Notes under the pieces: model-generated
Database searches by the model: none
The model's input: the letters and a program-made list of their open reading frames with translations, nothing else
What the model was told of the DNA's origin: nothing
Translations under genes and position numbers: made by a program
Shown: in pieces, positions 5,208 through 58,915 of the stretch
Layout of the letters: the number at the start of each line of letters is the position of its first letter
How positions within the stretch are numbered: the first letter of the stretch is position 1
DNA from: Chloroflexota bacterium
Lineage (GTDB): Bacteria > Chloroflexota > Anaerolineae > UBA4142
NCBI GenBank assembly: GCA_016208315.1
Contig: JACQYF010000122.1
Coordinates: 21,673-85,672 of the forward strand
Direction: 5' to 3'
DNA: 64,000 bases

Positions 5208-5348
5208 TATAATCTAGTCGTAGAACGGTCACATGACGACGTGTGATTTGGGCTGGGGGCAATGAACCGCGATTCGTTTAATTCGGCCACCTAGAATCGC
5301 GATGAGCCAGTGGTGAGACCGACCAGTATTTTTTCTGGTCGGTTTTTC
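5208..5348 (+). promoter_or_regulatory. Leader of the secretion cassette with a -10 box and a terminator-like hairpin
   Basis: A TATAAT box (5208-5213) lacks a convincing -35 box. About 105 bases downstream is a strong hairpin ACCGACCAG/CTGGTCGGT (5318-5343) followed by TTTTTC, ending 22 bases before the first ATG at 5370. A second inverted repeat, GCGATTC/GAATCGC, precedes it. The layout fits a transcription attenuator. I compared it with c-di-GMP riboswitch consensus features and see no match. Apart from this leader and the kinase terminator, 5024-5369 holds nothing I recognise. Confidence 0.45.
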
Positions 5349-17834: not shown

Positions 17835-18812
17835 TTGCGCGCGCTAATCACCGGCATCAACGGTTTTGCGGGCAGCCACCTCGCCGATTTCCTGTTGACG
17901 CAGCCCGGCACGCAAGTTTTCGGAGGGGTGTACGGCTTGTGCGATAACATCGTCCATCTCGACGGCCGCGCCACGTTTATCGAAGGCGACTTGCGCGAAC
18001 TGGATTTTGCCGAGGAGTTAGTCAAAGAGACCCAGCCGGATTATATCTATCATTTGGCCGGGCAGGCCTTTCCTCCCGCATCCTGGCAAGACCCCTGGAC
18101 GACCCTCGAAATTAACCTCCGTTCAGAGGTAAACCTGCTGCACAGCGTCGCCAAGATCAAACTGAAACCCCGCATCCTCGTCGTCGGGTCACTGGAGGAA
18201 TATGGACACGTGGATGCGCGCGCAATGCCGGTTGTCGAAGAGACGCCGTTTCAACCCGATAGTCCTTACGGGGTGAGCAAAGTCGCTCAAGATTTGCTCG
18301 GACTGCAATATTTCCAGAGCCATCATCTCCCCATCGTCCGCGTCCGTCCCGCCAATCACATTGGGCCGCGCCAAAGCGAACAGTTCGTCACGTCGGATTT
18401 CGCCAAGCAGATCGCCGAAATCGAAGCGGGCCAGCGCGAGCCGGTTATGCGCGTGGGCAACCTCAGCGCCGCGCGCGATTTCACCGACGTGCGCGACATG
18501 ATGCGCGCCTACCATCTCGCCCTTGAGCGCGGCAAGCCGGGCGAGGTCTATAACATCGGCAGCGGGCGCGCCGTTTCGATCCAGCGCGTGCTCGATATTT
18601 TGCTGGAGCAGAGCCGCGTCGCGATTCGCGTGGAACAAGACCCCACGCGGCTGCGACCGTCCGATACGCCGGTCTTGTATTGCAGCGCCGAGAAATTTCG
18701 CGCGCAGACCGATTGGCAGCCGACCATCCCGCTGGAGCAATCGCTGCGCGACGTACTCGAATATTGGCGGGAGAAAGTAAGCAAGGAAGCAGGTAAACAG
18801 GTACACAAGTAG
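17835..18812 (+). CDS. GDP-6-deoxy-4-keto-mannose reductase-like SDR (Rmd type)
   Basis: Extended short-chain dehydrogenase of 325 residues. NAD(P) site is ITGINGFAGSHL (5-16); the catalytic set is Ser in VVGSLEEYG and Tyr/Lys in SPYGVSKVAQ. It is paired with gmd, so it probably reduces the Gmd product to GDP-D-rhamnose or a similar deoxyhexose for surface polysaccharide. The start is a TTG at 17835 with GAGGAG six bases upstream; the ATG further up lies in the promoter. The last residues (EAGKQVHK) and the stop codon come from a family B repeat, replacing whatever the original C-terminus was. Confidence 0.85.
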   Translation: MRALITGINGFAGSHLADFLLTQPGTQVFGGVYGLCDNIVHLDGRATFIEGDLRELDFAEELVKETQPDYIYHLAGQAFPPASWQDPWTTLEINLRSEVNLLHSVAKIKLKPRILVVGSLEEYGHVDARAMPVVEETPFQPDSPYGVSKVAQDLLGLQYFQSHHLPIVRVRPANHIGPRQSEQFVTSDFAKQIAEIEAGQREPVMRVGNLSAARDFTDVRDMMRAYHLALERGKPGEVYNIGSGRAVSIQRVLDILLEQSRVAIRVEQDPTRLRPSDTPVLYCSAEKFRAQTDWQPTIPLEQSLRDVLEYWREKVSKEAGKQVHK

Positions 18813-18881
18813 ACATGTCCCTGTTTGCCTGTTTACTTGCGTACCTGTGTACCTGTCTACCTGTCTACCTACGTACATCTA
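18777..18881. repeat. Palindromic array (family B) between rmd and gmd
   Basis: Units of the type AGGTAAACAGGTACACAAGTAGACA face units of the type TACCTGTGTACCTGTCTACC, so the stretch can fold into one long hairpin. It begins inside the upstream coding region and supplies its TAG stop. Related arrays are at 33293-33655, 34090-34167, 48029-48120 and 58838-58915. Confidence 0.8.
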
Positions 18882-33275: not shown

Positions 33276-33314
33276 CTGATACCTCTAAAGCAAGGTACAC
33301 AGGTAGACAAGTAG

Positions 33315-33425
33315 ACACAGTAGATCACAGTTTCACCGAGGAGTGAGCGCTCTCTAGCGCGACTCACGCATGACGTCGGCGTTAGAGAACGCCTGTCTCC
33401 TCGAATTTGTGATGTACTGAGACAA
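33315..33425. repeat. Cruciform element, copy 1
   Basis: Nested inverted repeats CAGTAGATCACA/TGTGATGTACTG, CGAGGAG/CTCCTCG and GCGcTCTCTA/TTAGAGaaCGC enclose a 15-base apex. Copy 2 follows at a period of 123 bases with a different apex. Confidence 0.8.
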
Positions 33426-33437
33426 GTAAACAGGCAG

Positions 33438-33547
33438 ACACAGTACATCACAGGTTTACCGAGGAGTGAGCGCTCTCTAGCGCGAATCCAGCAACAGGGC
33501 GGCGTTAGAGAACGCCTTTCTCCTCAAATCTGTGATCTACTGAGACA
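33438..33547. repeat. Cruciform element, copy 2
   Basis: Same architecture as copy 1: CAGTACATCACA/TGTGATCTACTG outside, GAGGAG/CTCCTC, then CTCTCTA/TTAGAGA. Each outer arm has one mismatch with its own partner but is perfectly complementary to the arm of the other copy. Confidence 0.8.
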
Positions 33548-33627
33548 GGTACAAAGGTAAACTGGCAAACAAGTTCAATGTACGTGTGTACTTTTGTACC
33601 TGTTTACTTGTCTACTTGTCTACCTGT

Positions 33628-34074
33628 TTACTTGTGTACCTGCCTACCTGCCTGTTCCTTCTTCCACGCCTCGTACTGCTCGTCAAAGTACATCTCATTC
33701 GCCTTGTAGTAATCCTCCGACCGTTTGAACGCGTCCTGCACGATCTGCTCGAACTGCTGCGGTGAGATGCGCTCCCGGACCGCGCTCGCGTCCAGATCGC
33801 CCACCTTGGCCGGCAGCGCGTGATAGACGCTCTCGGCGATTTTCTTTTTGTCCGCGGGTGACAGCGGTGGGTAGCCATCCCCCAGCGCGCATTCCGTTGT
33901 CCGATACGCCGCGTCAATGCCATAGAACGCGATGGGCAGAAGCAAACGTTCCATGTCCTCGGCGGCCCCTGCCTCGCGCTCGACCAGCCGGGGGTAGAAA
34001 AAGATCAATAGCGCAAAAATCGCCGAGCTAATCGCGATGCCGGCGAAGAGGAAGATGAGCGAGTTGACGTCCAT
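33628..34074 (-). CDS. Small membrane protein of unknown function
   Basis: 148 residues with one N-terminal membrane helix (about 4-26, SLIFLFAGIAISSAIFALLIFF) and a soluble, charged, mostly helical remainder (EDMERLLLPIAFYGIDAAYR, ADKKKIAESVYHALPAK, QFEQIVQDAFKRSEDYYK). I do not recognise the family. GGAGA precedes the ATG at 34074; the longer frame upstream is coded by a repeat. The C-terminal AGRQVHK and the stop come from a family B array, giving nearly the same tail as the reductase at 17835 (AGKQVHK). Confidence 0.7.
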   Translation of the reverse strand: MDVNSLIFLFAGIAISSAIFALLIFFYPRLVEREAGAAEDMERLLLPIAFYGIDAAYRTTECALGDGYPPLSPADKKKIAESVYHALPAKVGDLDASAVRERISPQQFEQIVQDAFKRSEDYYKANEMYFDEQYEAWKKEQAGRQVHK

Positions 34075-34089: not shown

Positions 34090-34167
34090 GTAAAGAGTAA
34101 ACAAGTACACAGGGAAACAGGTAGACAAGTCACGTGTGTACCTGTGTACCTGTTTCCCTGTCTACCT
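34090..34167. repeat. Palindromic array (family B)
   Basis: AAGAGTAAACAAGTACACAGGGAAACAGGTAGACA-type units face TACCTGTGTACCTGTTTCCCTGTCTACC-type units. It lies between cinA and the membrane protein gene and begins at the cinA stop codon. Confidence 0.75.
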
Positions 34168-45699: not shown

Positions 45700-46131
45700 A
45701 TGGCACTGCTCGCCGCGGGCGCCCCCGCCCCAACGTTCAAGGGTCTTAATTTGACCGGACCTGAAGTCAACTACGAGAATTACAAGGGCAAAAAGCCCGT
45801 CGTCCTGATCTTTTCCAGCACCCGCGTGGACCCGGCTCAGATCAACGCGGTCAAAGCGATGTGGATGAAGCACCGCGAAAAGACCGAGATTATCACCGTT
45901 TCCTACAAGCTGCCCAGCGTCTCGATGGCGAAAGCGTTCATGCAGCAACTCGGCGCCAAATTCCCCGCCCTGTACGATCCGGCCCAGACCGTTTACAAGG
46001 CGTTCGGCGTGGAGAATCCCGTCGCGATCGTCGTCATTGATGCGAACGGCTCCATTGCCTACTCCGCCGAAGCGCTCGAGACCAAAGACACCAAGGCGTT
46101 GGAAGAAGCGATTGTCGCGAATGTCAAGTAG
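45700..46131 (+). CDS. Redoxin-fold protein lacking the catalytic cysteine
   Basis: 143 residues with a thioredoxin/peroxiredoxin-like fold: GAPAPTFKGLNLTG, YKGKKPVVLIFSS, LGAKFPALYDPAQTVYKAFGV, VENPVAIVVIDANGSI. The peroxidatic Cys normally found after the F-x-x-T/S strand is absent (FSSTRVDPAQ), and the protein contains no cysteine at all. Peroxidase activity is therefore not expected; a binding or chaperone role is possible. Its stop codon opens a repeat array. Confidence 0.75.
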   Translation: MALLAAGAPAPTFKGLNLTGPEVNYENYKGKKPVVLIFSSTRVDPAQINAVKAMWMKHREKTEIITVSYKLPSVSMAKAFMQQLGAKFPALYDPAQTVYKAFGVENPVAIVVIDANGSIAYSAEALETKDTKALEEAIVANVK

Positions 46132-46213
46132 TCGAATAGTCAATTGGTCAATTAGTCGCCTAGGCAATTAGTCGCAGGCCTGATTGACCAATTGACTTGT
46201 TGACTAATTGACG
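46128..46213. repeat. Palindromic array (family D)
   Basis: AGTCAATTGGTCAATTAGTCG units face TTGACCAATTGACTTGTTGACTAATTGAC, starting at the stop of the redoxin-like gene. Related arrays are at 50853-50986 and 54419-54593. Confidence 0.75.
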
Positions 46214-46854: not shown

Positions 46855-48033
46855 GTGAAAGATGTGGTCGTAATCGACGGCGCGCGCACGCCCATTGGCT
46901 CGTTCGGCGGGAGTCTGCGCGAGGTAAATGCGCCGACGTTGCTGGAGCACGCCTTTCGCGCCGCGCTCGACAAGACGAAAATCGAACCGAAGGACATTGA
47001 CGAGACCATCGTCGGCCAGGTGTTTCAGGGGAGCGACGCGCCGGGGATCGCGCGGTTTTGCTCGCTGCGCGTGGGCATCCCAAATGACGTTCCGGGAATG
47101 ACGCTGAATCGCCAATGCGCGAGCGGATTGGAAGCCGCGGTCTATGGCGCGAAAGATATTTTGACCGGCGATGCCAACCTCGTGTTGACCGGCGGCGTCG
47201 AATCCATGAGCACCGTACCCTACCACATTCGCGGCATGCGCTGGGGCGTCAAGATGGGGCCGCAATTCCTCATTGACGGTATGGCCGAACTCTTCGACGA
47301 CGTGACCGCGGGCGGAATGTGGATCTGGGCCGAGAACATGGCGGAGAAATTCGAGGTCTCGCGCGAGGAACAGGATCAATGGTCGCTCATCTCGCACCAG
47401 CGCGCCGTCGCGGCGACCGCGTCCGGGCGCTTGCGCGCCGAAATCGCGCCGCTGGAAATCCCGGACCGCAAGGGCGTGCGCGTGATGGACAAGGACGAAG
47501 GCCCGCGCGCCGACACCTTTCTCGAAAAACTGGCGCGGCTCGAACCGAAGTTCAAATGGGACGGCACGATCACGCCCGGCAATGCCTCGACGCTGAACGA
47601 CGGCGCTTGCGCGGTCTTTATCACTTCACGGGAAAAAGCCGACCAACTGGGGATCGAGCCGCTAAGCCGAATCGTTTCGTGGGCCGTCGTCGGCGTGGAC
47701 CCGGGAATCACCGGCTACGCGCCCGTCGTCGCGATTCCGGCCGCGCTGAAAAAAGCGGGACTGACGCAACAGGACATTGCACTGTACGAAGTGAACGAGG
47801 CGTTCGCGGTGATGATCGTCACGACCCTTCGCGAACTGAACCTCGATCCCGAGACACTTAACGTGAATGGCGGCGGCGTCGCGCTCGGTCATCCGGTAGG
47901 GATGAGCGGCAATCGGCTGCTGCTAACCATGTCGTATGAACTGAAACAGCGCAAGGCCGAGTTCGGCGTCGTGGCGCTCTGCGCCGGCGGCGGACAAGGG
48001 ATTGCGATGGTCATTCAAAATCTGGAAAGGTAA
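46855..48033 (+). CDS. Thiolase (acetyl-CoA acyltransferase)
   Basis: 392-residue thiolase that cleaves 3-ketoacyl-CoA or condenses acetyl-CoA. The nucleophile Cys lies in LNRQCASGLEAA (about 86-97). NEAFAV, GGGVALGHPVGMSGNR and the second Cys in CAGGGQG complete the active site. The start is a GTG at 46855 with TAAGGAG upstream, that site being part of a repeat array. With the acyl-CoA dehydrogenase and CaiB-like genes nearby it is probably part of fatty acid or aromatic acid breakdown. Its stop codon lies at the head of a family B array. Confidence 0.94.
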   Translation: MKDVVVIDGARTPIGSFGGSLREVNAPTLLEHAFRAALDKTKIEPKDIDETIVGQVFQGSDAPGIARFCSLRVGIPNDVPGMTLNRQCASGLEAAVYGAKDILTGDANLVLTGGVESMSTVPYHIRGMRWGVKMGPQFLIDGMAELFDDVTAGGMWIWAENMAEKFEVSREEQDQWSLISHQRAVAATASGRLRAEIAPLEIPDRKGVRVMDKDEGPRADTFLEKLARLEPKFKWDGTITPGNASTLNDGACAVFITSREKADQLGIEPLSRIVSWAVVGVDPGITGYAPVVAIPAALKKAGLTQQDIALYEVNEAFAVMIVTTLRELNLDPETLNVNGGGVALGHPVGMSGNRLLLTMSYELKQRKAEFGVVALCAGGGQGIAMVIQNLER

Positions 48034-48120
48034 ACAGGGAAACAGGTACACAGGTAAACAAGTACACAGGTAGGCAAGTGCTACCTGTGTACCTGTTTAC
48101 GTGTTTACCGGTCTACCTGC
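48029..48120. repeat. Palindromic array (family B)
   Basis: AGGTAAACAGGGAAACAGGTACACAGG units face CTACCTGTGTACCTGTTTACGTG. It overlaps the thiolase stop and ends five bases before the CaiB-like ATG. Confidence 0.78.
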
Positions 48121-50855: not shown

Positions 50856-50986
50856 ACAAGTCAATTAGTCAATCGGTCAATCAGTCAATTAGTCGGGCAG
50901 TCGCAGTGACACTGCCCGACTATTTCATTATTCCACTAATTGACTATTCGACTAATTGACTACTCGACTACATGACTACCCATTCG
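50853..50986. repeat. Palindromic array (family D)
   Basis: TAGACAAGTCAATTAGTCAATCGGTCAATCAG units face CTAATTGACTATTCGACTAATTGACTACTCG around a CGGGCAGTCGCAGTG/CACTGCCCGAC centre. It begins at the stop of the acyl-CoA dehydrogenase. Confidence 0.78.
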
Positions 50987-53717: not shown

Positions 53718-54415
<698 letters not shown>

Positions 54416-54418
54416 GGC

Positions 54419-54593
54419 AATGAGCCAATTGACCAATTGACCAATGAGCCAAACTGCTCGCTCTTGCGCTTGATTTGGTTATTGGCAATAGGACGCAAGT
54501 TGCTCTTTGTTGACGGCGGCATCCCCATGCCGCCGTCAATGGTTTGATTTGGCTCATTGGCCCATTGGGCAATTGGCTCATTGATCAACCCCC
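54419..54593. repeat. Nested palindromic array (family D variant)
   Basis: Outer units AATGAGCCAATTGACCAATTGACC and TTGGCTCATTGGCCCATTGGGCAATTGGCTCATTG surround an inner perfect hairpin TTGACGGCGGCAT/ATGCCGCCGTCAA (54510-54539). It lies between the convergent response regulator and glyA genes and may end both transcripts. Confidence 0.7.
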
Positions 54594-58837: not shown

Positions 58838-58915
58838 AAGTAGACAGGGAAACAGGTATATAGGTAAACAGGGTATCCATGTCTACCTGTGTACTTGTTT
58901 CCCTGTCTACCTGCG
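58838..58915. repeat. Palindromic array (family B) upstream of typA
   Basis: AGTAGACAGGGAAACAGGTATATAGG units face CTACCTGTGTACTTGTTTCCCTGTCTACC. It lies in the typA leader. Confidence 0.75.

Follow-up and report, generated by a model that had tools for sequence, protein, structure and literature searches.

Tandem nested palindromes in a Chloroflexota genome as probable miniature transposons carrying REP doublets

Two nested palindromes lie in tandem in a stretch of 64,000 nucleotides (the window) from a bacterium of the Chloroflexota. Each is very probably a 102-bp non-autonomous miniature transposon (MITE) with ISH3-like ends and a REPIN-like belly, a doublet of REPs, the composite having spread as a unit. 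The outer layer and the inner layer of the same palindrome thus point to two different kinds of mobile DNA, and the evidence for each is considered below, followed by the ways in which the pair itself could have arisen.

The Palindrome Pair in the Window

The pair is intergenic, between two genes on the same (minus) strand, one of unknown product and the other encoding a class-IV aminotransferase, the latter about 40 bp away. The two palindromes, each of 102 bp, start 123 bp apart, within a 123-nt direct repeat (33299-33421 and 33422-33544) whose halves are 85% identical. The locus is made up of the following parts.

33293..33317, no strand: octamer-period repeat of the left flank, GTAGACA-type units, partly complementary to the 33579-33650 array
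33313..33317, plus strand: AGACA preceding copy 1, a putative target duplication of 5 bp (from the flank comparison, row L131)
33318..33419, no strand: first composite element, a MITE containing a REP doublet (copy 1)
33318..33330, plus strand: left terminal inverted repeat of copy 1, CAGTAGATCACAG
33338..33360, plus strand: REP unit B of copy 1, tag GAGGAG and hairpin GCGCTCTCTAGCGC
33378..33402, minus strand: REP unit A of copy 1, opposed head to head to unit B, with hairpin GGCGTTAGAGAACGCC and tag CTCCTC (GAGGAG on the minus strand)
33407..33419, minus strand: right terminal inverted repeat of copy 1, CAGTACATCACAA on the minus strand
33420..33440, no strand: spacer AGACA-AGTAAACAGGC-AGACA, that is, putative right target duplication of copy 1, octamer repeat and putative left target duplication of copy 2
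33441..33542, no strand: copy 2 of the composite element
33441..33453, plus strand: left terminal inverted repeat of copy 2, CAGTACATCACAG
33461..33483, plus strand: REP unit B of copy 2
33501..33525, minus strand: REP unit A of copy 2
33530..33542, minus strand: right terminal inverted repeat of copy 2, CAGTAGATCACAG on the minus strand
33543..33547, plus strand: AGACA following copy 2, a putative target duplication of 5 bp
33579..33650, no strand: octamer-period repeat of the right side, TACYTGTY units

The cross-matched outer arms described in the initial annotation are indeed present. Left arm 1, CAGTAGATCACA, pairs with right arm 1, TGTGATGTACTG, with 1 mismatch and with right arm 2, TGTGATCTACTG, perfectly; left arm 2, CAGTACATCACA, likewise pairs perfectly with right arm 1. 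Inside the arms, each copy has GAGGAG/CTCCTC feet and the two hairpins GCGCTCTCTAGCGC and GGCGTTAGAGAACGCC. The suggestion that the pair could fold as one giant hairpin agrees with prediction, the minimum-energy RNA fold of the joined pair containing the crossed arm pairing (-119.7 kcal/mol, z -8.2), an energy reached by 0 of 100 shuffled sequences.

Terminal Inverted Repeats, Target Duplications, and an ISH3-like Transposase

The outer arms are the terminal inverted repeats (TIRs) of a MITE. Other genera of the order have them too, often as pairs at a spacing of 90-300 bp. Among 40 distinct elements with both arms from sister Chloroflexota genomes, in the selection of which the flanks played no part, 26 have identical 5-mers on both flanks and 36 have 5-mers that agree in at least 4 of 5 positions. 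When the right flanks were swapped among elements in 2000 shuffles, perfect matches numbered 4.6 on average (maximum 13) and matches of at least 4 of 5 numbered 15.2 (maximum 23). The identity holds at exactly 5 bp and at no other length, the preferred target being N-G-W-C-N; a 3-bp GWC duplication, the first idea, was dropped when a systematic test of length gave 5 bp. Such duplications surround the composite element as well. At the pair in the window, AGACA is present also in the local octamer repeat, so that at this one locus the putative target duplications do not settle the matter.

Four loci of the order (L240, L273, L274, and L275) carry ISH3-like DDE transposase genes with TIRs that are the same or related. 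The most complete picture comes from L240 of genome G011, a 1253-bp element in which a 395-amino acid open reading frame lies between perfect 12-bp TIRs with the same arms. Its protein matches the NCBIfam ISH3 model over its full length (E 3.4e-55) but scores 187.3 bits against a cut-off of 225, and it is for this reason called only "ISH3-like"; Pfam DDE_Tnp_1 is slightly above its cut-off. The transposase reading frame of L274 has CAGTACATCACG at both ends with AGATT/AGATT duplicated, that of L273 has related ends with CAGTAGATCCAAA on both sides, and L275 is a fragment with one related end. An autonomous partner is present in G016, a genome with many copies of the arms; no relative of the ISH3-like protein is detectable in the genome to which the window belongs (hereafter the own genome, G000; 93% complete).

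Among the arm pairs listed, no TIR-TIR element is without cargo, and no empty site was found in a search that same-genus genomes lay outside. One locus of the own genome (L009, C106:10057-10092) has the outer arms without a REP core; its breakpoints fall in TCAC repeats and it lies inside a long octamer hairpin, and it looks like a slippage deletion of the REP core.

The REP Doublet and Its Tyrosine Transposase

The inner layer consists of two short palindromic hairpins, inverted head to head, with a conserved tag at the foot of each. The local hairpins covary: in aligned 16-mers, 120 of 156 cells are Watson-Crick pairs, compared with a maximum of 108 in 5000 shuffles, and double changes in the stems include T-A to C-G and G-C to A-T. 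A conserved long hairpin was rejected, as the two halves are identical, making a perfect long hairpin possible, in only 4 of 39 doublets, whereas the local stems covary. The tag is GAGGAG in the own copies, AAGGGG in the sister genus represented by G009 (Chloroflexi MAG NC_groundwater_1079), and GCGTAG in related hairpins of the same order. By its place in the sequence, this foot tag appears to hold the position of the GTAG guide, the canonical REP tag (PMC3733652, PMC6006769), although the own tag is GGAG and not the canonical GTRG (GTAG/GTGG).

In G009, two doublets directly flank a gene (L042:1570-2178), one before and one behind. The product matches NF047646 REP_Tyr_transpos of NCBIfam (125 bits, cut-off 80), as well as Pfam Y1_Tnp and the PDB entry TnpArep 4er8, and retains the HxH and YIHNNP motifs; these matches identify the gene as one for a predicted REP-associated tyrosine transposase (RAYT). 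Given about 30 doublets in 2.8 Mb, the chance of such two-sided flanking is, by our own estimate, of the order of 1e-4 or less. The REPs at this gene have no outer arms in the sequence examined. The own genome, at 93% completeness, yielded no homologue of the cognate RAYT, and a RAYT of its own as the source was rejected, all five Y1_Tnp genes there being flanked by other hairpin families. Each of these genes (L056-L060, on C53, C116, C162, C152, and C141) has a different hairpin set, several of them nested double hairpins, and many RAYTs of the order are flanked by similar hairpins.

Dispersal of the Doublets

The further genome copies for which the initial annotation proposed a search do exist. 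With a covariance model of the inner part, the own genome (6.26 Mb) yields about 17 doublets, spread over 15 contigs, G009 about 30, and G008 one, and three genomes from another family within the order have weaker relatives; doublets are absent from 14 other genomes of the order searched with the same model. The copies are dispersed and mostly intergenic, with a few in open frames, and REP halves are found singly as well. One such half (L022:1501-1525) lies in frame in a 623-amino acid open frame, where it is read EEKAFSNA, and a similar stretch is found just upstream of it. In G009, many copies are situated at contig ends (C62, C177, C281, C291, C180, C92, and C178); the repeat probably broke the assembly, the true copy number then being above the count. 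An exact pattern of the perfect doublet has no match across 84,980 species, because tags and stems vary, and the element has no match in phage records, plasmid records, or viral contigs.

Exchangeable Cargo

The same TIRs are found around at least five mutually unrelated palindromic interiors, namely the REP doublet and those beginning GTCATTTCGAGCG, GTCATGCTGAGCGAAG, CGCGGATGAACGCGG, and ACACAGATGCCACAGATG, some of which are also found outside TIRs at the loci examined. A search of the literature by sequence for the other cargo palindromes returned nothing relevant. Conversely, REP doublets of the own genome are found in more than one setting: 4 of 18 have these TIRs, 2 have a different TIR pair, and 12 have no complementary arms. 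The second TIR pair, TTTGGCAATGTCA, is accompanied in the clearest cases by 4-bp direct repeats, GTAG or CTAC, and also surrounds a GTAG-tagged REP doublet (L149, L151). It marks a second MITE-like family (L015, L020, L041, L149, and L151) with two different REP doublets as cargo.

Alternative Readings of the Palindrome

These observations bear on two simpler accounts. If the element were a plain REPIN or BIME, the arms would simply form the outermost part of the REP doublet, and a RAYT alone would have moved the nested palindrome in its entirety, as might be supposed from the sharing of the outer arms by most G009 doublets and from the REPs that flank the G009 RAYT. Those very flanking REPs, however, show no outer arms in the sequence examined, most doublets of the own genome are also without them, and the arms surround both unrelated cargo and ISH3-like genes, with 5-bp duplications. 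The occurrence of the arms around other cargo largely refutes this account, which we consider very improbable.

The initial annotation had left the choice between a mobile and an RNA element, and it is the mobile half that stands, on the dispersed copies, the 5-bp target duplications, and the ISH3-like transposases with the same ends. A structured RNA with a conserved fold (a terminator, attenuator, or small RNA) between the two same-strand genes would account for the intergenic location, the very stable predicted fold, and one terminator-like match at 33501-33516; the pair would fold if transcribed. Yet one such match against 0.5 expected is not above chance, the positions of the copies in the genome are unrelated and some are inside open frames, conservation lies in the local hairpins and not in the whole fold, and target duplications mark inserted DNA. 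With no Rfam match above the gathering score at the site and no sign of a functional RNA, this is the least probable of the readings, slightly below the RAYT-only account. Elsewhere in the window, Rfam identifies a c-di-GMP-II-GAG riboswitch (5246-5333, plus strand, 66.7 bits).

Origin of the Tandem Arrangement

How the two composite MITEs came to lie side by side is a separate matter, since a local tandem duplication followed by arm exchange or conversion, as the initial annotation proposed, is compatible with their identity as MITEs. The 123-bp spacing, the cores in the same orientation, the resemblance of the spacer to the left flank, and the crossed arm matches would all fit such a history. 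Comparison with copies elsewhere argues against it. The two copies agree in 88 of 102 positions, and each is at least as close to L003, a copy from a different contig: copy 1 agrees with it in 89 of 101 positions and copy 2 in 90 of 98. G016 has a run of three elements, end to end, with TGACA common to neighbors (L243), and the two complete ones differ in cargo. The similarity of the spacer to the left flank is expected in an octamer array. The crossed matching itself comes down to one G/C position per arm, which makes it weak as evidence for arm exchange, and the same difference separates the two TIRs of copies in another genus (G006, L254-L259, CAGTACATC and CAGTAGATC). Duplication with arm exchange is therefore unlikely. 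Because of the similarity to L003 and the different cargo in the L243 tandem, two separate insertions into neighboring octamer repeats would be a likelier history than an old duplication.

The AGACA-rich octamer repeat around the pair is a fitting target for such insertions. Insertion at the apex of octamer hairpins was considered, several type-1 copies being situated in octamer arrays; a CCTGWCAGG-like target preference could explain part of these. Many intergenic gaps of the window contain imperfect hairpins with arms built of tandem repeats, period 7 or 8, in which the unit sequence differs from place to place; these hairpins may be terminators or insertion targets. They are found at the following positions.

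740-810, 18777-18876, 33579-33650, 34105-34165, 46123-46212: intergenic period-7/8 array hairpins
48028-48119, 50859-50978, 54413-54583, 58840-58910: the remaining intergenic period-7/8 array hairpins

A Model for the Composite Element

The most likely history of these layers would begin with two independent systems. The ends, CAGTASATCACA, would be recognized by an ISH3-like DDE transposase whose target duplications are 5 bp long, while the REP doublet would first have been spread by a RAYT acting on single-stranded hairpins. The doublet would then have entered the center, or apex, of a TIR-TIR palindrome, and the composite would have spread as one unit via ISH3-type transposition; alternatively, palindromes may have been captured during faulty repair of the MITE interior. 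Both the entry at the apex and the roles of the ISH3-like and RAYT enzymes as the movers are what we infer from the arrangement of the sequences. Because neither enzyme was found in the own genome, its copies may be relics, which fits their lower mutual similarity (85-92%, compared with 91-95% among the main G009 copies compared). The element is probably selfish, and any effect on the neighboring aminotransferase gene would be a side effect.

Relation to Known Systems and Implications

The inner layer shares with REPINs and BIMEs and their RAYTs (TnpA-REP) the inverted doublets of tagged hairpins, the mostly intergenic location, and, in the sister genus, an HUH/Y1 RAYT flanked by the same hairpins. 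It differs from them in a tag that is GGAG or GGGG instead of GTRG, in the inclusion of six own-genome doublets in TIR-bearing MITEs, and in the cognate RAYT not being found in the own genome. The outer layer, in turn, resembles the DDE-derived bacterial MITEs Correia, RUP, and BrickBuilt (PMC4596501) in its length of about 100 bp, the TIRs of a full insertion sequence, the fixed-length duplication, and its non-coding nature. BrickBuilt likewise has a repeat as cargo (PMC4596501), but the ends are here ISH3-like and the belly may be a REP doublet or other unrelated palindromes under the same TIRs.

A further parallel comes from Anabaena variabilis and Halothiobacillus neapolitanus, in which REP dimers are central in a longer conserved palindrome and REP-free palindromes were not found (PMC3733652). 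That outer palindrome was left unexplained in 2013 (PMC3733652); in the present element, the outer palindrome is identified as a pair of TIRs flanked by target duplications of 5 bp. While REPINs, RAYTs, and MITEs are all already known, the new aspect is the exchangeable palindromic cargo of a MITE; no MITE that carries a REP doublet is described in the literature searched, which covered few subscription journals.

A broader generalization can be offered only tentatively. The ISH3-like MITEs of this Chloroflexota order might be general carriers of palindromes, the apex of the TIR-TIR hairpin accepting REPs and other palindromic repeats so that DDE and HUH single-strand systems ride on each other, and the REP-in-palindrome cases of the cyanobacterium and Halothiobacillus could be the same phenomenon. 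REP doublets and DDE-type MITEs are usually handled as separate, and here one nested palindrome is both, by layer. The arrangement offers a candidate explanation for REP dimers within long palindromes of other bacteria, one that predicts fixed-length target duplications there. It would also give REPs a route of spread without a transposase of their own, and this is relevant to their persistence in genomes that lack a cognate RAYT.
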